The notes beneath the pieces are model-generated. The model was not told the DNA's origin. It saw only the letters and a program-made list of their open reading frames with translations, and ran no database searches. From NCBI GenBank assembly GCA_019753175.1, contig JAIELK010000007.1, positions 1 to 64,000 of the forward strand: DNA of 64,000 bases, given 5' to 3'. Numbering within the stretch: the stretch's first letter is position 1; every line of letters begins with the position of its first letter. Source of the DNA: Hyphomonadaceae bacterium (lineage in GTDB: Bacteria; Pseudomonadota; Alphaproteobacteria; Caulobacterales; Aquidulcibacteraceae). Of the stretch, positions 2,059-48,350 are shown piece after piece. The translations under genes were made by a program, and so were the position numbers.

Positions 2059-3425
2059 ATATCTTCTCCTGCGCGGCGTCTGGCGATTTCTTCACGCAGC
2101 GCATGCTGACGCTGCTCGTCGAGCGGATAATTCTGCAGCGACCACGCGGTGAGGATGTTGAGCATAGCGGGCGCTCCAGCAAACAGCAACGTCAACGCCA
2201 ACAACGCCTCTGGCGAATTGGCGGCGCCGCGTTCAGCCGAGAAGCCGAACGGCGCGAGTAGGATGAGGCTCGCTGGCCCCAACGCCAATCCGACCTTACC
2301 CGTGGTGAGCAGCAATCCGAAGAACAAGCCAGAGCGCTGCTTACCGGTCCGCAACTCATCTTCATCGACGACATCCGCCATCATGGAGCGCACGAGCAGC
2401 GTGCCGGCCACGGCGGGGAGGCCGGCTATGAACATGCCGATGCCGACGATAAGCGCCGATCCGTGTGGCAACAGCGGCACGCACGCCAGCGCCGCCGCCC
2501 ACCAGATGCAAGAGAGCTGCAGCGCGCGGTGCTTGCCCATGCGTCGCCCCAGCCAAAGCCACAGCGGCACGCCGGCAAGCCCTGCCACGAAATAGACGAG
2601 CAGCAGCGTCGATGCCACGGCGCCCAGGCCGTGAACTTGCACCGCGTAAAACATGAACAGTGTGCCCGCGACACCCTGCGTGGCGCCGAGCAGGAAATCC
2701 GGAATGAGGACGCGTCTCAGAGCATCGTTATCGCGTAACGCCGCGAGCGACTGCGCAAAGCCGTGGCTCTTCCCTTCCTCTTCATGGATGGGCGCTGCGT
2801 TTTCCGGAACCGCCCAAACGGCGATCGCCACCGTGATCGGCAGAGCGACGATGATTGTCCAACCCATAAGGCGTACGCCGTCGTCGAAGCCGCCCAAGCC
2901 TGAAAGCTCCACCAGCGCGGGCAGCATCATCACCACGATTTGGCCTATGGACGACGCCGCTTGAACGGCGCTCAATACGCGGGTGCGCCCATGATACTCC
3001 GGCCTGAGTTCGCCGGCCCAGCCAAGGTGCGCGATCATTGCGCTGGCAAAGCTTGCATAGAGCGAAAGCACGGCGAAGCCGAGCACGATGGCGCTTATCC
3101 CTGGCTGGACCGCGATGAATGCGAACCAAACGGCGAGCATGACAACAGGTGTGGCGCCGACAAGCCAAGCGCGCCGTCGTCCAAAAGCAAGGCGGGTGCG
3201 ATCCTGTAGCGAGCCGATGGTCGGATTGATGAACAGGTCGAATATGCGCGCGGCTAGGAACAGCGCGCCGACCGTTGCAGCTGGGATCGCCAAGTACTCT
3301 GCGTAGTATCGAGGCAGAAAGACAATCGGCGGCACCGAAAGCGCCAACAAGGGCGCTCCGGGCAGTGCGAACGCCAACAGTCGCCAACCTCTCGCGGTGC
3401 GCGCTTCGTCCGTTTCAATTGTCAT
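2055..3425 (-). CDS. MFS / GPH-type sugar:cation symporter
   Basis: A 456-residue polytopic membrane protein. The motif near residues 60-90 (ARIFDLFINPTIGSLQDRT followed by GRRRAW) is the cytoplasmic loop signature of the glycoside-pentoside-hexuronide:cation symporters related to MelB. About twelve hydrophobic segments are visible. The substrate cannot be told from sequence and no sugar-catabolic gene is adjacent. It is convergent with mnmC (4-base overlap) and 78 bases downstream of suhB on the same strand. Confidence 0.85.
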   Translation of the reverse strand: MTIETDEARTARGWRLLAFALPGAPLLALSVPPIVFLPRYYAEYLAIPAATVGALFLAARIFDLFINPTIGSLQDRTRLAFGRRRAWLVGATPVVMLAVWFAFIAVQPGISAIVLGFAVLSLYASFASAMIAHLGWAGELRPEYHGRTRVLSAVQAASSIGQIVVMMLPALVELSGLGGFDDGVRLMGWTIIVALPITVAIAVWAVPENAAPIHEEEGKSHGFAQSLAALRDNDALRRVLIPDFLLGATQGVAGTLFMFYAVQVHGLGAVASTLLLVYFVAGLAGVPLWLWLGRRMGKHRALQLSCIWWAAALACVPLLPHGSALIVGIGMFIAGLPAVAGTLLVRSMMADVVDEDELRTGKQRSGLFFGLLLTTGKVGLALGPASLILLAPFGFSAERGAANSPEALLALTLLFAGAPAMLNILTAWSLQNYPLDEQRQHALREEIARRRAGEDI

Positions 3426-3503
3426 GAACGTCCCGTCTGTTCCGGCAAGCGCGCTTTCCCAGCATCATCGCTAACCCGATGATGGGTGCGCCGTAAACAA
3501 TGA

Positions 3504-4289
3504 TTAGTCGCGCAGCGTTTGCGTGAACGGCCCGATCAGCGTGGTGTTTGCCGCTACGATAGCGCCACTGATCATGAAGTCGCCGTCGTCGATCTCGTTG
3601 ACGACCCCGCCGGCTTCGCGCACCAGCAGCGCGCCTGCGGCGACGTCCCAGGCGCTCAAGCCGCGCTCCCAGAAGCCGTCGAAGCGGCCAGCGGCGACAT
3701 AGGCCAAGTCGAGCGAGGCCGCGCCCCATCGGCGCACGCCCGCGGCTTTGGCGATGATGCGCTCGACTTCTCGCAGCGACACCTCGTGGCCTGGCCGTCC
3801 ATGGTAGGGAATGCCGGTGGCGAATATCGCGTCTCGCATGTCGGTGCGTCCGGCCACGCGCAGGCGACGATCATTGAGGTAAGCGCCTACGCCTTTCTCC
3901 GCCCAAAACAGTTCGTCACGCACGACGTTGTAGATCACGCCGGCAACGAGCACGCCCTCGCGTTCCAGCGCAATCGAGATGGCGAAGTGCGGCAGGCCGT
4001 GCAGGAAGTTGGTGGTGCCGTCGAGCGGATCGACGATCCAACGATGGGTCTTGTCTGTGCCCTCGACTACGCCGCGTTCTTCCATGAGGAAGCCGTAGCC
4101 TGGACGCGCTTTTGAAAGTTCTTCGAAGATTGTTCTCTCCGCTTTCATGTCGGCGGCGGAGACGAAGTCGCTTGGCCCCTTGCGCGACACCTGCAGATTC
4201 TCGACCTCGCCGAAATCGCGCGCCAATGCCCGCGCCGCTTTGCGGGCGGCGGCGAGCATCACGTTCATGGTGGCGGAGGCCTGGGGCAT
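3504..4289 (-). CDS. suhB: Inositol-1-monophosphatase family protein (SuhB)
   Basis: A 261-residue Mg2+-dependent phosphatase of the inositol monophosphatase family. The metal-binding motif WIVDPLDGTTNF is near residue 84, preceded by the MEERG element, and the second motif WDVAAGALLVREAGG is near residue 218. Length is typical of SuhB, which hydrolyses inositol phosphates and in enterobacteria also takes part in rRNA antitermination. A second ATG eight codons in (MNVMLAAARK) is an alternative start. carA lies 42 bases upstream on the same strand. Confidence 0.9.
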   Translation of the reverse strand: MPQASATMNVMLAAARKAARALARDFGEVENLQVSRKGPSDFVSAADMKAERTIFEELSKARPGYGFLMEERGVVEGTDKTHRWIVDPLDGTTNFLHGLPHFAISIALEREGVLVAGVIYNVVRDELFWAEKGVGAYLNDRRLRVAGRTDMRDAIFATGIPYHGRPGHEVSLREVERIIAKAAGVRRWGAASLDLAYVAAGRFDGFWERGLSAWDVAAGALLVREAGGVVNEIDDGDFMISGAIVAANTTLIGPFTQTLRD

Positions 4290-4331
4290 GGGCTGGGCCT
4301 GCTAGCAGGGCGGGCCCCGCTGAGCAAGCAA

Positions 4332-5567
4332 TCACGCCGCTTTCGCGCGTTTGGCCATCAGCTTGGCGAAGCGCTCGAACAGGTAATGACTGTCCTGCGG
4401 TCCGGGCGAGGCTTCGGGATGATACTGAACCGAGAACACCGGCTTGCCTTCAAGTTCGATGCCGCAATTGGAGCCGTCGAACAGCGAGACGTGGGTTTCC
4501 TTCACGCCCTTAGGCAGTGTCGCGGCATCGATGGCGAAGCCATGGTTCATCGATACGATCTCGACCTTGCCGGTCTTCTTGTCTTGTACAGGATGGTTGG
4601 CGCCGTGGTGGCCTTGGCTCATCTTCTTGGTCTTGGCGCCGAGCGCCAAGCCGAGCATCTGGTGGCCGAGGCACACCCCCATCACTGGCACGCCGCTTTC
4701 GACCAGCGTCTTGATCTGCGGCGCGGCGTAAACGCCGGTTGCGGCGGGATCACCAGGGCCGTTCGAAAGCAGTACGCCGTCCGGCTTGTGCGACAACACC
4801 TCTTCGGCAGTCGCCGCCGCGGGCACCACGATACACTTGGCGCCGACATCGCCGAGCGCACGCAGAATGTTGCGTTTCACCCCATAATCCATGACCACGA
4901 CGGTGAATTTCGGCTTCTTGATCGCTGGCGCGCCGCCGGGCCAGCGCCAGCGTCCCTCCGACACGGTGTAGGTTTGCGCTGTGGTGACGTCCTTGGCGAG
5001 ATCGAGCCCCTCAAGACCCGACCATGCTTGTGCGCGTCTGATCAACGCGTCGAGGTCGAGCGCACCGTCGGGCGCGTGCGCGATCACGCCGTTCGGCATG
5101 CCGCGTTCGCGAATGCGTCGCGTCAGCGCGCGCGTGTCGATGCCGGCAAGGCCTATGACATTGCGCGCCTTCAGCCACGCGCCGAGCGTGTCGCTTGCGC
5201 GCCAGTTCGACGGCGCCGTCGGACGCGCGCGAAACACTGCGCCCCGGGCTGCACTGGCGGCGGCAGGCGAACTTGCTTCGACGTCTTCGTCATTGGTCCC
5301 GACATTGCCGACGTGTGGGAAGGTGAAGGTGACGATTTGGGCGGCGTAGGAGGGGTCGGTAAGGACTTCCTGATACCCGGTCATTGCCGTGTTGAAGCAG
5401 ACCTCGCCTTCGGCCGCTCCGATGGCCCCCAATCCCTCGCCGAAAAACACGGCGCCGTCCGCGAGAACCAAGGCGCCGGTAGCTGAAATGCGAGTCGAAT
5501 GGGGCAAAGCGCACGTGAGATAGGGGGCGTCGGCCAGGGTGTCAAAATCCACATGAGAGGGCGGCAA
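4332..5567 (-). CDS. carA: Carbamoyl-phosphate synthase small (glutaminase) subunit
   Basis: The 411-residue protein has the CarA N-terminal domain ([14 protein letters not shown]) and a C-terminal class I glutamine amidotransferase domain. The nucleophile is the Cys of GVCLGHQML and the catalytic His is in [10 protein letters not shown]. It hydrolyses glutamine and passes ammonia to CarB for arginine and pyrimidine synthesis; carB is not in the window. The frame opens with TTG at 5567; an in-frame GTG at 5552 is equally possible, so the N-terminus is uncertain. It diverges from the S9-family gene. Confidence 0.93.
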
Positions 5568-41813: not shown

Positions 41814-42359
41814 ATGCATAGAGGATGGCGTTCCCGCGGCTATCTCCCGCATTTTGATGCTTCCGGGTTGACTCAACATGTCGTGTTCGGACTTGCCGAC
41901 GCGTTTCCCTTCGAGTCTGAAGCGCCCGCGGACAGCAAGTTGCGTGATGCTTGGCGAGACGCTGCGCTGGACATGGGATACGGCGCATGCCTGTTAAGGG
42001 ACACTGCCGCCACAGTCGTGGAAGATGCTCTGCTCCACTTCGACGGGTTGCGCTACGGGCTGTGCGCGTGGTGCGTTATGCCCAATCACGTGCACGTGCT
42101 CGCGATCACGGGACATGGCTGGGCGCTTGATCGCATCGTGCATTCTTGGAAGTCCTACACCGCAAACAAGATCAACGAGCTCCGCGGGCGATCGGGACGG
42201 CTCTGGCGACGCGAGTACTACGATCATTTCATTCGCGACGAAGACGAGTTTCAGACCGCGCGCGTCTATGTAGAGAATAATCCAGTCGCCGCTGGTCTGG
42301 TCGCAAGCGCCGACGAGTGGCGTTGGTCGTCGGCTTGGCGGAATCGAGTTGCCGGCTAG
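41814..42359 (+). CDS. REP-associated tyrosine transposase (RAYT, Y1 family)
   Basis: ATG 41814 gives 181 residues beginning MHRGWRSRGYLPHFDASG, the family N-terminus. The metal motif HVH is in CVMPNHVHVLAI, and the single catalytic Tyr lies in the EYYDHFIRDEDEF segment followed by YVENNPVAAGLV. These enzymes nick and rejoin single-stranded REP DNA. The gene appears intact. Its stop codon lies within the right REP. Confidence 0.9.
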   Translation: MHRGWRSRGYLPHFDASGLTQHVVFGLADAFPFESEAPADSKLRDAWRDAALDMGYGACLLRDTAATVVEDALLHFDGLRYGLCAWCVMPNHVHVLAITGHGWALDRIVHSWKSYTANKINELRGRSGRLWRREYYDHFIRDEDEFQTARVYVENNPVAAGLVASADEWRWSSAWRNRVAG

Positions 42360-43125
42360 AAGCCGGCGGTACGATGGGCGCCGCCGCCGCACGCTGCCCG
42401 CGTCGCCCAAGATAGCGCACGCCCTTGAGCCACATCTGCAGCGCTTCCCAGTGGATGCCGGCAATGACTTTGAGCGTCATCAGCGGATTGCCGGCCCAAG
42501 CGCGCAGTAGGTTTGGGTCGGTGAGTTCGCGCCGTTCGCCCGCGAACGAGGCGGTGAGTGCAATGTCGTGGCCGCGCTTGACCGCCATCGCAACCACTGC
42601 CTTCTCGCCGGGGGGCGTCACTTGAAACTCGTAGCGTAGGCCGCCTTCAAGGAACGGCGAGACAAAGAACGCTTTGTCACAAGCTTGTGTGATCGCGCCG
42701 TTCTCGCGTTGCGTCGGCGGCAGCACGTAGAAGTGGCGCTCGCCGAACGTGTTTGACACCTCGTGCATGAGCGCCGCGAGTTCGCCATTTCGGCGCATAC
42801 AGAAATAGACGCTGAGCGGATTGAACACGTAGTTGAGCAAGCGCGGCATCGCTAGCAGAACGATGCGCCCGCCGTCCCAGGCAACGCCCGCTTCGCGCAG
42901 TTTAGCCTCGATCTGCGGCCTGATCGGCGCGCCGGTGCGCTCACCATGATCGCGGTCGTGCAGCGCCAGGAGATTCAGACGATTGTGCGAGAACCAGCGT
43001 AGATCACGGTCAAGCGCTGGCAGCTCGTCGATATCCAGGGCCAGCATGAACACGCTGTACCGTAGGCGATGCTTGCCGGGGCGGCGATGGGCGACGTGGC
43101 CCTGATAGATTGCCGAAACGGTCAC
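42229..43125 (-). CDS. DUF1365 family protein with C-terminus extended through the RAYT element
   Basis: GTG 43125 overlaps the stop of the FAD oxidoreductase gene and gives 298 residues. Family motifs are YQGHVAHRRPGKHRLRYSVF, LLNYVFNPLSVYFC, ALMHEVSNTFGERHFYVL and HWEALQMWLKG. Natural family members end soon after that last motif; here about 45 further residues are encoded by the right REP and antisense of the transposase 3' end. DUF1365 genes accompany rpoE-chrR in the Rhodobacter singlet-oxygen regulon. Confidence 0.85.
   Translation of the reverse strand: MTVSAIYQGHVAHRRPGKHRLRYSVFMLALDIDELPALDRDLRWFSHNRLNLLALHDRDHGERTGAPIRPQIEAKLREAGVAWDGGRIVLLAMPRLLNYVFNPLSVYFCMRRNGELAALMHEVSNTFGERHFYVLPPTQRENGAITQACDKAFFVSPFLEGGLRYEFQVTPPGEKAVVAMAVKRGHDIALTASFAGERRELTDPNLLRAWAGNPLMTLKVIAGIHWEALQMWLKGVRYLGRRGQRAAAAPIVPPASSRQLDSAKPTTNATRRRLRPDQRRLDYSLHRRARSETRLRRE
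42350..42373 (-). repeat. Right REP
   Basis: The minus strand reads CGTACCGCCGGCTTCT then AGCCGGCA, the inverted partner of the left REP with two differences. It includes the transposase stop codon and part of the DUF1365 frame. Confidence 0.8.
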
Positions 43126-44477
43126 GCGGCCAAGGCGTGCGGCGCCGGCGGCTGCGCGCCGAGAAAGATGCGACCGCTCTCGTCGGCGACGGTCCATGGC
43201 CGGCGGATGCCGCCCAATTGCTCGGCGACCGCTAGCCCCGCTTGCAGCCCGTCTTCATGGAAACCGGCGCCGAAATGAGCGCCGCAGTACCAGGTGTTGC
43301 GCACGCCCTGCAGCGACCAGAGCTGTTCCTGCGCGCGGATCGCTGCGGCGTTGAACAGCGGATGTTCGTACTCGGTGTCGTAGAGAACCGTCTGCTCCTG
43401 CGGCATGGTGCGTGGATTGAGCGTCAGGAACAGCTGCTCTTTGCTCTCGATGCGCTGCAGCTTGTTCATCCAGTAGGAGACGACGCAGCCGCCGCCCGGA
43501 TTGTCGCCGACATAGTTCCAGCTGGCCCAAAGCTTCTGCCGCCGCGGCATCAACGCGCGGTCGGTGTGCAGCACCGCGCGGTTCCTGGTGTAGCCGAACG
43601 CACCCAGCAGCGCGCGCTCTTGCGGGCTCGCGTCGTCGAGCATGGCCAGCGCTTCGTTGGCGTGCGTGGCGATCACCACATTGTCATAGCGCTGCACGTC
43701 GCCCGCGGCGTCGCGGACCCAAACGCCGGCGCCGTCGCGCCGCACCGAAACCGCGCCGGCATTGAGCCGCGCGCGCTCGGCGTAGGGCGCGGTCAGGCGG
43801 GCGACATAAGCTTGGCTGCCGCCTTCCACCGTGCGCCATTTCGGGCGTCCCTTGAGCTTCAGGAGGCCGTGATTTTCGAAGAACCGGACAAAGGCACAGG
43901 CGGGGTAGTGGTGAATTTCCGCCATCGAGGCCGACCAGATCGCCGCGGCTTGCGGCAGCAGGTGGTCATTGCGGAAGGCGTCGCCATAGCCTTGACGCGT
44001 CAAGTAGTCGCCGAGCGAAACCAAGTCCTCACGGGTGCTTTCGATGTCTGCGGGCGCGCGCTCATAGAAGCGCAGCAGGTCGCGCGTCATCGACCAGAAG
44101 CGCGGATTGAACAGGTTGCGGCCGCCGCACAGAAACGCCGAAGCATCAACCGATGAGTACTCGAAGCGGCCCCCGTCCAGGGATACGCCGAATGACATAT
44201 CCGAGGCCTTCGTGGGCACGCCTAGATGTTCGAACAGTGCAATCAGGTTGGGGTAGGTGGCGTCGTTGTAGACGATGAAGCCGGTGTCGACGGGCGTGCG
44301 CCCGAGGCTGGTGTCGACCCACACCGTGTTGGAGTGGCCGCCGAGCCGCGGGCTCTTTTCGTAAACGGTGACATCGTGTCTCTTGCTCAAGAGCCACGCC
44401 GCCGACATTCCCGCTATGCCCGAGCCGATCACGGCGATATTTTGCCGGCGGTCGGCGTCAGCGGAGGAAAAAGCCAT
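43122..44477 (-). CDS. FAD-dependent oxidoreductase (amine-oxidase fold) of the ChrR/RpoE regulon
   Basis: ATG 44477 gives 451 residues. It has the dinucleotide motif IAVIGSGIAGMSAAWLLS, YEKSPRLGGHSNTV, DTGFIVYNDATYPN and a C-terminal NTWYCGAHFGAGFHEDGL. In Rhodobacter the equivalent gene (next to DUF1365) is an RpoE target linked to fatty-acid changes under singlet oxygen. The divergent ECF-type promoter here supports the same control. The exact substrate is unknown. Confidence 0.88.
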   Translation of the reverse strand: MAFSSADADRRQNIAVIGSGIAGMSAAWLLSKRHDVTVYEKSPRLGGHSNTVWVDTSLGRTPVDTGFIVYNDATYPNLIALFEHLGVPTKASDMSFGVSLDGGRFEYSSVDASAFLCGGRNLFNPRFWSMTRDLLRFYERAPADIESTREDLVSLGDYLTRQGYGDAFRNDHLLPQAAAIWSASMAEIHHYPACAFVRFFENHGLLKLKGRPKWRTVEGGSQAYVARLTAPYAERARLNAGAVSVRRDGAGVWVRDAAGDVQRYDNVVIATHANEALAMLDDASPQERALLGAFGYTRNRAVLHTDRALMPRRQKLWASWNYVGDNPGGGCVVSYWMNKLQRIESKEQLFLTLNPRTMPQEQTVLYDTEYEHPLFNAAAIRAQEQLWSLQGVRNTWYCGAHFGAGFHEDGLQAGLAVAEQLGGIRRPWTVADESGRIFLGAQPPAPHALAA

Positions 44478-44526
44478 TCGTAAGGTCCCCACCAGAGCGG
44501 TTGCTTCCGTCTGGTATGGGAGCGCA

Positions 44527-44552
44527 TACGGGGCCTCTGGATGCCTGGATCA
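44527..44552 (-). promoter_or_regulatory. ECF sigma (RpoE-type) promoter for the FAD oxidoreductase-DUF1365 operon
   Basis: On the minus strand TGATCC (44552-44547), exactly 16 bases, then CGTA (44530-44527). This matches the TGATCC and TA-rich elements known for Rhodobacter RpoE. It is the mirror partner of the rpoE promoter 3 bases away. Confidence 0.75.
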
Positions 44553-44555
44553 GAC

Positions 44556-44581
44556 TGATCCGCAGGCGGGATTCGGCCGTA
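44556..44581 (+). promoter_or_regulatory. ECF sigma promoter for rpoE-chrR (autoregulation)
   Basis: TGATCC (44556-44561), exactly 16 bases, then CGTA (44578-44581). The two -35 elements form GGATCA-N3-TGATCC, so one compact site can fire both ways. Confidence 0.75.
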
Positions 44582-44653
44582 ATGGCTTTTATGCTCGCCG
44601 CTTCCGCAGTTTCGGCTCATGCGCGCCCCGGTCGTTGCGAACGGACGGTGGCT

Positions 44654-45211
44654 GTGAACAACCGTAATGAACCGAGTGACGAGGCGCTGTTGGGGCGGGT
44701 GGCCGCGGGAGACCGCGAGGCGTTCGCGCGGCTGTTCGAGGGCTATGCGCGTCGTGTGAAGTCCTACCTCATCCGTTTGGGCGCGCCCGGCGCCATCGCC
44801 GAGGATCTCGCCCAAGACGCCATGGTTTCGATCTGGCGGCGCGCTGGGTCGTACGATCCGACCAAGGCAAAGGCCTCGACCTGGATCTTCGTCATTGCGC
44901 GCAACGCTTGGATCGATCGGTTGCGGCGCGAACGCGTCGAGGTCGCGTATCGAGATACGCTGTTCGAAGATGAGGAAAGCAGCGATGAATCGCCGGACGA
45001 AGCAGCCGTGCGCTCGCAGACTGAGGCACAGATGACCGCGGCGCTCTCAATCCTGTCGCCAGAGCAGCGGCAGGTGGTGCAGCTGTCCTTTTTTGAAGAT
45101 AAACCGCACTCGGAAATAGCCCAGCACCTGTCTCTGCCGCTGGGAACCGTGAAATCCCGCCTTCGGCTCGCGCTCATAAAGCTGAAGGCGCACTGGGAGC
45201 AGTACAAATGA
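44654..45211 (+). CDS. rpoE: ECF sigma factor, RpoE/ChrR-associated type
   Basis: From GTG 44654 the product has 185 residues, close to Rhodobacter RpoE. Region 2 shows DREAFARLFEGYARRVKSYL and AEDLAQDAMVSIWRRAGSYD; region 4 shows LSPEQRQVVQLSFFEDKPHSEIAQHL and LGTVKSRLRLAL. It would transcribe singlet-oxygen and peroxide response genes when released from ChrR. The frame is open further upstream (ATG 44583), but that would begin at the promoter. It overlaps chrR by ATGA. Confidence 0.9.
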   Translation: MNNRNEPSDEALLGRVAAGDREAFARLFEGYARRVKSYLIRLGAPGAIAEDLAQDAMVSIWRRAGSYDPTKAKASTWIFVIARNAWIDRLRRERVEVAYRDTLFEDEESSDESPDEAAVRSQTEAQMTAALSILSPEQRQVVQLSFFEDKPHSEIAQHLSLPLGTVKSRLRLALIKLKAHWEQYK

Positions 45212-45831
45212 GCCCGCGTCATCATCCTTCCGTCGACGTCCTCGCGGCGTACGCTTCGGGGACATTGGAGTCCGGCTTTGGATTGGTCGTCGGCACCCAC
45301 GTTGAGGGGTGCGCCGAATGCCGTCGCCAAGTGTCGCAGCTGCAGGCCTTGTCGGGCGAGGCGCTGCGGGCGCTTCCGCAGGCGGAGATGGCCGGCGATG
45401 CGCTGGCGCGCGTGATGGCGCGGCTCGACGATGCGCCCGTCCCGGCAGCCCGGATCGAGACGGACCGCAGACCGCTGCTGGACCGTTTGCCGCTGAAACC
45501 ACGCAAGTGGATCACGCCGGGCGTGTGGGTCGCCGCGGTGGACACGCCGCACGATGCCGACAATCGCGTCTACGTGCTTTCTGTTGCGCCGGGCTGGCCG
45601 ACAGCGCGCCACGAGCATACGGGCGCGGAATTCTGCACCGTACTCAAGGGCGCTTTCCGCGACGAGATCGGTCTATTCCAAGCAGGCGACTTCGCCGCCA
45701 CGGAAGGCGAACTCAATCACCAGCCGATCGTGCAGGGCGATGAAGCCTGCGTGTGCTTGTTCGCGACCGAGGGCCGCCTCAAACCGCAAGGTTTGCTGGG
45801 CCGGTTGGCGTTTGGGTACGCCAACGTCTGA
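45208..45831 (+). CDS. chrR: ChrR-type zinc anti-sigma factor with cupin domain
   Basis: The 207-residue protein has the N-terminal zinc anti-sigma fold: HPSVDVLAAY, then THVEGCAECRRQV (H-x3-C-x2-C). It also has a C-terminal cupin (TARHEHTGAEFCTVLKGAF and GELNHQPIVQGDEACVCLF). In Rhodobacter the cupin domain is needed to respond to singlet oxygen. The ATG overlaps the rpoE stop, which couples sigma and anti-sigma synthesis. Confidence 0.92.
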   Translation: MSPRHHPSVDVLAAYASGTLESGFGLVVGTHVEGCAECRRQVSQLQALSGEALRALPQAEMAGDALARVMARLDDAPVPAARIETDRRPLLDRLPLKPRKWITPGVWVAAVDTPHDADNRVYVLSVAPGWPTARHEHTGAEFCTVLKGAFRDEIGLFQAGDFAATEGELNHQPIVQGDEACVCLFATEGRLKPQGLLGRLAFGYANV

Positions 45832-45995: not shown

Positions 45996-46610
45996 ATGCC
46001 TGACCTGGACACAAAGTTGCACTTGGAGATGCTCGCCCGGGAACGCCGGCCGGGAGAGCTTTACGGACTTCACTGGGGCGACCCCGAGGCTAATCCGGTG
46101 CTGAGGCGCGTGGTCGAGCGCTTCATCAAACCCCACGTGGGACGAGATAAAGTGCTACTGGAAATCGGCCCCGGCGGCGGGCGTTGGACGCGCTATCTCA
46201 TCGACAACTGCAAAACGCTCTATGCGGTCGACTACCATCGTGAACTGTTGGATGTATTGCATGAGAATTTCAATCATCCGCACATTGTCGATATCGTAAA
46301 CAGTGGGTGCGACTTCCCGGGTGTCCCGGCTAAAGAAGTCGACTTCTTATTCACATTCGGGGTCTTCGTTCACCTCGACCTCGATATCATCGAACAATAC
46401 CTCGAGAACATGCGCGCGATCCTGAAGCCAGACGCACGTGTTTTCATCCAGTATTCCGATAAGACTAAGCCCGAAGGCAAAGCCAACCCCGGCTTCTCTG
46501 TGAACACGCCGGCCGTTATGCGTGGTCTCGTTAAAGAGAAGGGCTATACGATCCTTGAAGAGGATACAGAGAGTCTGTGGCACTCCTCTATCGTCCTGTT
46601 CAGACCCTAG
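45996..46610 (+). CDS. Class I SAM methyltransferase, probably acquired
   Basis: 204 residues with a canonical SAM motif VLLEIGPGGGRWTRYL, then ADY-type acid in LYAVDYHREL and FLFTFGVFVHLDLDIIEQYL. Codon usage and base composition are clearly less GC-rich than neighbours (Lys, Asn, Ile common). It is bracketed by two copies of the DUF2235 3' end, one decayed, pointing to insertion with target duplication or gene conversion. The substrate is unknown. Confidence 0.82.
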   Translation: MPDLDTKLHLEMLARERRPGELYGLHWGDPEANPVLRRVVERFIKPHVGRDKVLLEIGPGGGRWTRYLIDNCKTLYAVDYHRELLDVLHENFNHPHIVDIVNSGCDFPGVPAKEVDFLFTFGVFVHLDLDIIEQYLENMRAILKPDARVFIQYSDKTKPEGKANPGFSVNTPAVMRGLVKEKGYTILEEDTESLWHSSIVLFRP

Positions 46611-46641: not shown

Positions 46642-47739
46642 TCACGCGGCTCGTCGCATGTGCCGCACGGCGCATTCGATCTGCCGTGTATGTCGAATGA
46701 GCGGCTTTGGGCGATATTTCGGATCGACGCTCCAACGCAGTTGCGCCGTCTCGTGCACGTCCTCGTACCGGTTCAATCCCTGGCGCCAGCGCTGGCCGGT
46801 GAGGCTGAGCACCAGCGAACCCTTGCCGGACAAGCGCGCGTGCAGCGGGTCGATGTTCGCAAGCGCGGCCGAGATCACTGAGCCGGGCTCGCGCGCAAGC
46901 GTCAGCCCGGTGTGTTCGGCGCCGTCAAGCACCCAAAGCAACGCGCAGTTGGAAAGCCCTCGCGAAACGTCCGAGCCGCCGACGCCGCCGTGATCGCCGG
47001 GGAACCAAGCTTGCATGACGCGCGGCGGCGCGCCCTCCACATTGAAGGCGTCGACATTGGTCCACAGCGTCGGCGCGAACGCGGCGCGGCGCTCATCGAT
47101 GGCGACGGCATGGCGCGCGGCGATCACGGCGCGTGAGAGCGCGGTGTCGTGGAAACGGTAGTGCGCGCGGAGGCCGATGTCGAAGGGCAGGAGGCGCGGT
47201 ATGCCAAGCGAGCCGACCGTGTCCCAGACGCCGACATAGGTGATGCGCAAGTCGAACGGCGGTTCTGCGCCGGCCTTGTCAAGTTTCGGCCATGCTGCGG
47301 CATGCGCGGCCCGGAACCGCGCGGCGTCGAGGCTGTCAGCACTCTTCTCGCGATGCCGGTAGAGTTCGAGGGCGACGCGGGCTTTGTCGACGTGGGCGCG
47401 TCTCAGCACGCCGCATTTGCGCAACAGACCGACCAGGCTGCGCACCGTGTAGGCGCCGCGCGAAAAGCCGAACAGGTAGATTTGATCGCCCGGCTCGTAG
47501 TTGAGGTTGAGGAAGAGATACGCATCGAGCAAATTGTCGTCGAGGTCAGCGCCGGTCATGCCGTTCCACATGCTGACGCCATCCATGTTCGCGCCGACGC
47601 CGGCGGAATAATAGACGATCTGCGGGCGTCCTTTGGGGTCGCGGGTGGCGATTGCACGCGCGGTCAGTGCAACGTTGGTGAGGCTCGTCTGGTCGAGCCG
47701 TTGCCAGGTGCCGTCGCAACAGATGACAATCCGCTTCAT
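46642..47739 (-). CDS. DUF2235 (T6SS Tle-like alpha/beta hydrolase) family protein
   Basis: From ATG 47739 the product has 365 residues. It starts MKRIVICCDGTWQ, the family signature, and has the nucleophile elbow LFGFSRGAYTVRSL, VGVWDTVGSLG, and PGDHGGVGG. DUF2235 includes T6SS phospholipase effectors and housekeeping hydrolases; no T6SS gene or immunity gene is near, and the gene is coupled to metW (ATGA), so a housekeeping role is more likely. Confidence 0.85.
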   Translation of the reverse strand: MKRIVICCDGTWQRLDQTSLTNVALTARAIATRDPKGRPQIVYYSAGVGANMDGVSMWNGMTGADLDDNLLDAYLFLNLNYEPGDQIYLFGFSRGAYTVRSLVGLLRKCGVLRRAHVDKARVALELYRHREKSADSLDAARFRAAHAAAWPKLDKAGAEPPFDLRITYVGVWDTVGSLGIPRLLPFDIGLRAHYRFHDTALSRAVIAARHAVAIDERRAAFAPTLWTNVDAFNVEGAPPRVMQAWFPGDHGGVGGSDVSRGLSNCALLWVLDGAEHTGLTLAREPGSVISAALANIDPLHARLSGKGSLVLSLTGQRWRQGLNRYEDVHETAQLRWSVDPKYRPKPLIRHTRQIECAVRHMRRAA

Positions 47740-48350
47740 GGCGCCAACAGAAACACCGCCTGTTCCGCAAACCAGTTGGCGCGCCAGAGGACGCGCGCGA
47801 AGGGGGCGCCGTGGCGTCCGCCGCCGATGGGCGTGGCGCGCTCGACGTTGAGATGCGCTGCGCGCGCCAAAGCGACAAAGTCGCGCACGGTGCAGAATGC
47901 ATCGGACCGCCAAGTCTGGAGACGGCCTGACGCGACATGGCGAAGCCGGGTGCGCCAGTGACCAGCATTGTCGATCGATACGATGACACGCTCGCCTGCG
48001 CCCGCCGCCGCGCGCAGCGCCCTTTGGGGATCGCGCATGCCGAGCAAAGCGTGCGAGAGCACGACATAGTCGAAACTGCGGGCAGGAAAGTCGGCGAGGC
48101 TATGCTCGGGGTCGCCCTGCACGACAGACAGGCCGCGTCGCACGCACGTCAGCACTTTCTGCGGATCGACTTCGATGCCGCGCGCTCTGGCGTTGCGCTC
48201 GCGCGTTAACAGGGTGATCAATGCGCCGTCGCCGCAGCCCACATCGAGGACGCGCGCGCCGTCTTTGATCAAAAGGGCGACCGCCGCTTGCAGCGCTGTC
48301 GGCTCGACAGCCGCGGGCGGCAGCGGTTGCACCAAAGTAAGCGCCGCCAT
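47736..48350 (-). CDS. metW: MetW, methionine biosynthesis methyltransferase-like protein
   Basis: From ATG 48350, whose A overlaps the metX stop (TGATG), the product has 204 residues. It has VLDVGCGDGALITLL, GIEVDPQKVLTCVRRGLSVVQGD and FDYVVLSHALL, matching MetW. MetW works with MetX in homoserine acetylation in several proteobacteria. GGAGG lies eight bases upstream of the ATG. Confidence 0.9.
   Translation of the reverse strand: MAALTLVQPLPPAAVEPTALQAAVALLIKDGARVLDVGCGDGALITLLTRERNARARGIEVDPQKVLTCVRRGLSVVQGDPEHSLADFPARSFDYVVLSHALLGMRDPQRALRAAAGAGERVIVSIDNAGHWRTRLRHVASGRLQTWRSDAFCTVRDFVALARAAHLNVERATPIGGGRHGAPFARVLWRANWFAEQAVFLLAP

Follow-up and report, generated by a model that had tools for sequence, protein, structure and literature searches.

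A 55-bp element separates two divergently oriented gene pairs in the window, by which we mean the whole 64-kb stretch of DNA analyzed (Table 1). On the plus strand, rpoE encodes an ECF sigma factor that consists of region 2 and region 4 only (PF04542 and PF04545/PF08281). Its closest PDB match is Rhodobacter sphaeroides SigE (2Q1Z_A, E=2.1e-34), with which the region-4 stretch aligns well. The adjacent chrR product passes the cut-off of the ChrR subfamily model TIGR02451 (158.5 bits, cut-off 124.5), falls below that of the NCBIfam equivalog NF051881 (163 of 300 bits), and matches the Cupin_7 domain. Its His-x3-Cys-x2-Cys motif (HVEGCAEC) and its cupin H-x-H-x3-E motif align with PDB 2Z2S_B (E=6.7e-30), zinc-ligand residues included. 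Sigma domains, a neighboring ChrR with both a zinc site and a cupin domain, and a promoter upstream of rpoE together assign the pair to ECF11, the RpoE-ChrR group. In-frame TTG and ATG starts for rpoE (44501, 44582) were ruled out by their positions before or at the promoter; the ATG abuts the -10 element and lies upstream of the expected transcription start, and we therefore placed the rpoE start at the downstream GTG.

On the minus strand, genes for an FAD oxidoreductase and a DUF1365 protein lie next to each other and beside rpoE-chrR, the combination by which we identify furan-fatty-acid genes. Their R. sphaeroides counterparts, RSP1091 and RSP1090, have been named UfaD and UfaO and function in methylated furan-fatty-acid synthesis (PMC7380195); by analogy with that work, the products here probably have the corresponding enzyme activities. 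The putative GTG start of ufaO overlaps the ufaD stop codon (GTGA), consistent with a single ufaD-ufaO operon, and the ufaD open reading frame reaches further upstream, to a GTG at 44492. Domain and profile matches thus bear out all four gene identities proposed in an earlier, sequence-only reading of this DNA. An open reading frame with a Y1/IS200-like transposase domain (PF01797; 41778-42359) lies just downstream of ufaO and is read from the opposite strand; it could be a REP-associated transposase. Beyond chrR, a small methyltransferase gene (45996-46610) precedes a minus-strand gene (46642-47913) whose product has a Tle1-like phospholipase catalytic domain (PF09994, E=1.2e-76).

Table 1. 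Genes and predicted promoter elements at the rpoE-chrR/ufaD-ufaO locus, in window coordinates
Feature	Position	Strand	Remarks
ufaO-like DUF1365 protein (RSP1090 type)	42229..43125	minus	PF07103, E=2.8e-76; putative GTG start
ufaD-like FAD oxidoreductase (RSP1091 type)	43122..44477	minus	Amino_oxidase/NAD_binding_8; start taken as ATG 44477
ufaD-ufaO promoter, ECF11/RpoE-type (predicted)	44527..44552	minus	TGATCCAGGCATCCAGAGGCCCCGTA; perfect TGATCC-N16-CGTA
ufaD-ufaO promoter elements	-35 TGATCC 44547-44552, N16, -10 CGTA 44527-44530	minus	
Inter-hexamer spacer	44553..44555		3 bp, GAC
rpoE-chrR promoter, ECF11/RpoE-type (predicted)	44556..44581	plus	TGATCCGCAGGCGGGATTCGGCCGTA; perfect TGATCC-N16-CGTA
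rpoE-chrR promoter elements	-35 TGATCC 44556-44561, N16, -10 CGTA 44578-44581	plus	
rpoE, ECF sigma factor	44654..45211	plus	Sigma70_r2/r4; putative GTG start 44654
chrR, zinc-binding anti-sigma, cupin domain	45208..45831	plus	Overlaps rpoE stop

The intergenic element carries one consensus copy of TGATCC-N16-CGTA on each strand, and the window holds no other perfect copy. The geometry described in the sequence-only reading, in which a 3-bp gap separates the -35 hexamers and 16 bases lie within each site, is exact. The -10 elements lie 47 bp apart, and the two promoters share no core element. We expect transcription to start near 44588 on the plus strand and 44520 on the minus strand, roughly 70 bp apart. 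The motif is the experimentally derived consensus reported for ChrR-linked sigma factors of Pseudomonas syringae (PMC5507510) and Shewanella (PMC4336711); the PSPTO_1043 and RpoE2 regulons share this consensus, with ChIP, qRT-PCR or primer-extension support, but no back-to-back geometry is apparent from the descriptions consulted.

A genome scan for the motif, suggested by the sequence-only reading, returned 7 perfect copies in the 3.13-Mb genome, against 2 for a reversed-pattern control. One copy alone is therefore weak evidence, and the case has to rest on the pair. This pattern search also served to sample the regulon. One perfect site lies 45 bp upstream of a gene for a secreted fasciclin-domain protein (L151:2408-3005, C10), a candidate regulon member, and another lies just upstream of a DUF3833 gene elsewhere in the genome. 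DUF3833 is, we assume, the family of RSP1088. RSP_1088 is listed against a lipoprotein in PMC5507510. As a possible counterpart of ufaM, the CFA-type methyltransferase gene of the furan-fatty-acid set, we noted a CMAS (cfa-like) gene immediately after one for a photolyase (photolyase L161:1629-2870, cfa-like 2910-4343, C5), an order resembling the photolyase and CFA-type methyltransferase of R. sphaeroides RSP2143-RSP2144; a one-mismatch site, TCATCC-N16-CGTA, lies 40 bp upstream of the cfa-like gene and overlaps the photolyase stop codon. The perfect copies on C17 and C23 have no downstream gene that makes sense as a target and look like chance matches, so the 10-base consensus alone over-predicts.

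Pairs of sites are a different matter. A scan of GTDB genomes for two perfect sites separated by a 0-30 bp spacer found at least 119 back-to-back pairs; from 20 fixed bases, 31 spacers, and 257 Gb, we put the chance expectation at about 7. Among the matches listed, 76 pairs fall between RpoE and UfaD, 4 between RpoE and UfaO, and 6 between UfaD and UfaO; ChrR lies close to 99 of the pairs. Most of the pairs are from Alpha- and Gammaproteobacteria and a few from Betaproteobacteria (Burkholderiales). Across 385 alphaproteobacterial genomes, spacers of 0-30, 31-61, and 62-92 bp yielded 17, 11, and 1 pairs, respectively, and the reversed control yielded 0; among 396 genomes drawn from the phylum, 9 contained a pair, again with 0 for the control. 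Proteobacterial lineages outside the genus show spacers as short as 2 bp and as long as 60 bp. Six loci from several Rhodobacteraceae (Shimia, Leisingera, Aliiroseovarius, and others) carry the pair between ufaD and ufaO, with a nearly fixed spacer of 28-29 bp; in four Ruegeria loci, the pair lies between rpoE and ufaO and its spacer is 16 bp long.

For a footprint within the genus, we compared ChrR-bearing relatives, which provided 17 loci (L120-L136) with rpoE and ufaD in divergent orientation. Every one of these loci has both sites. None of the 34 promoters departs from the N16 length or from CGTA, and their -35 hexamers read TGATCC or TGAACC. Mean pairwise identity is accordingly 100% in the -10 elements and 91-96% at -35 positions, as compared with 36-38% in the N16 stretches. 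The spacer between the hexamers measures 3 bp at 15 loci and 2 bp at the remaining two (L128, L130), and its sequence varies. Exactly one site has the weakened TGAACC at 11 of the 17 loci (9 on the ufaD side, 2 on the rpoE side), and no locus has it on both. Scanned genome-wide, this variant was not enriched (2 copies, 6 in reversed controls), and it is thus credible solely by its conserved position here. The minus-strand site depends on its gene neighbor: at the three loci with no ufaD found upstream (L137, L148, L149), the rpoE-side site occurs alone. One genome (G008) has two rpoE-chrR copies, of which L148 is the one lacking a ufaD match upstream; L149, from G011, likewise lacks it. At a locus from a more distant relative (L142), both -35 hexamers read TCATCC across a 2-bp spacer, a shared change that is expected if one sigma factor reads both.

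On the strength of this comparative sequence evidence, the 55-bp element is very probably a divergent promoter pair for a single ECF11-group sigma factor, co-driving rpoE-chrR and ufaD-ufaO. Co-induction of the sigma factor with the FAD-oxidoreductase and DUF1365 genes, which the sequence-only reading had predicted, is strongly supported by the footprinting. Under this model, photo-oxidative or peroxide stress, the presumed signal, would cause ChrR to release RpoE, which is predicted to bind both sites. RpoE-RNA polymerase at the plus-strand promoter would then raise expression of rpoE-chrR in an autoregulatory manner, and at the minus-strand promoter that of ufaD-ufaO, the output of which, by analogy with R. 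sphaeroides, may close a positive feedback loop on ChrR.

The likeness to the Rhodobacter singlet-oxygen response drawn in the sequence-only reading holds up well. In R. sphaeroides, rpoE-chrR and RSP_1091-1087 are also divergent, each operon has an RpoE-dependent promoter before it, and the circuit forms a positive loop in which RSP1091 and RSP1090 promote ChrR degradation under singlet oxygen (PMC3818230). The sigma factor, anti-sigma factor, FAD oxidoreductase, and DUF1365 protein are homologous, and the closest structures to our proteins are the SigE-ChrR complexes 2Q1Z and 2Z2S. The two loci differ in that the divergent operon here apparently consists of ufaD and ufaO alone, with the DUF3833 gene located elsewhere under its own site. 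Stenotrophomonas maltophilia likewise has a divergent cluster, smlt2375-smlt2367, beside rpoEc-chrR-chrA, which is up-regulated upon chrR loss in a sigma-dependent manner; however, this cluster comprises nine genes, is accompanied by an extra chrA, and contributes to superoxide rather than singlet-oxygen tolerance (PMC11832516). The bidirectional promoters described by Warman et al. resemble our element in that polymerase can load in two orientations and may compete, but they share a -10 element, have pseudo-symmetrical core elements, and typically start transcription 10-23 bp apart (PMC12825309). Our element falls outside that shared-core class: its -10 elements do not overlap, and it consists of two complete promoters whose -35 ends adjoin. 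Co-induction by RpoE is thus largely known and the arrangement is conserved; what is new is confined to the 2-3 bp geometry fixed across the genus and a possible helical phasing.

Such tight packing raises the question of competition, which the sequence-only reading had also considered. Two holoenzymes might exclude each other at 2-3 bp, creating a competitive switch that balances or de-noises sigma factor and enzyme output, an idea we entertain tentatively while leaning against it. Two usual RNA polymerase footprints need more than about 70 bp, and the expected starts here are only about that far apart. The spacer also stays at 2-3 bp throughout the genus, but this constancy counts for little when a 3-bp spacer offers few positions for indels, and the far wider spacers of other lineages argue that exclusion is no conserved requirement. 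Weakening of one -35 hexamer and never both would fit a switch as well, yet with 2 events on one side the pattern is not significant. Finally, strong activation of one direction does make divergent polymerases compete at bidirectional promoters of E. coli, although no competition was seen at basal transcription (PMC12825309).

Less probable by a wide margin is that just one site still functions here, the second being a remnant in decay; one-sided TGAACC variants are indeed common in the genus, but both window sites match the consensus, and every congeneric locus with an adjacent ufaD keeps both -10 elements and both spacings exactly. We consider it slightly less probable still that GGATCA-N3-TGATCC is the operator of a dimeric transcription factor, its likeness to promoters being secondary. 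Although the perfect inverted repeat and short spacer would suit a dimer, such an operator needs fixed spacing and we rejected this reading because the distance between the hexamers varies widely in homologous loci; moreover, without exception in the genus, a half-site has its CGTA exactly 16 bp away, and the half-site facing the ufaD position is lost where ufaD is missing. A chance match in GC-rich DNA has a negligible probability, for while single perfect copies arise at an appreciable rate (7 versus 2 reversed), the pair-level controls in alphaproteobacteria and the invariance of the sites in all 17 relatives, despite divergent spacers, refute it.

Returning to the divergent promoter pair, we asked how its spacer lengths are distributed around the DNA helix. 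For this we used the GTDB pairs listed, collapsing near-identical sigma factors; perfect motifs were sampled and clade structure was handled coarsely. At a period of 10.5 bp, chosen on physical grounds, spacers among these matches cluster with R = 0.25 (Rayleigh p ~0.0025) and a preferred phase of 3.7 bp. As a hold-out set we took 31 sites found in the class and phylum scans, excluding the window's genus and keeping about one site per family; these agree modestly with the GTDB phase (V = 0.39; p = 0.0012 analytically, 0.0003-0.004 by jitter). By itself, the GTDB set of matches listed fits a period of 8.25-8.5 bp slightly better, whereas the hold-out sets alone favor 10.5-11 bp. A 3.5-bp phase would set the centers of the -35 hexamers whole turns apart, and hence on the same face of the DNA. 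Back-to-back ECF11 -35 spacing may thus be helically phased near 3.5 + n x 10.5 bp, with polymerases docking on one face, a suggestion we advance with reserve; the strict 10.5-bp phase is a lead and not proven. If true, the phasing would point to a selected physical relation between the complexes, which might exclude each other, share upstream contacts, or load cooperatively; 2-3 bp would be the tightest state of that relation.

The pair provides base-level evidence for how a sigma factor and the lipid-oxidizing enzymes that feed back on its anti-sigma factor are co-induced across Proteobacteria. Its natural spacers, from 2 to 60 bp, offer a comparative series for how near divergent promoters can get before their polymerases interfere.
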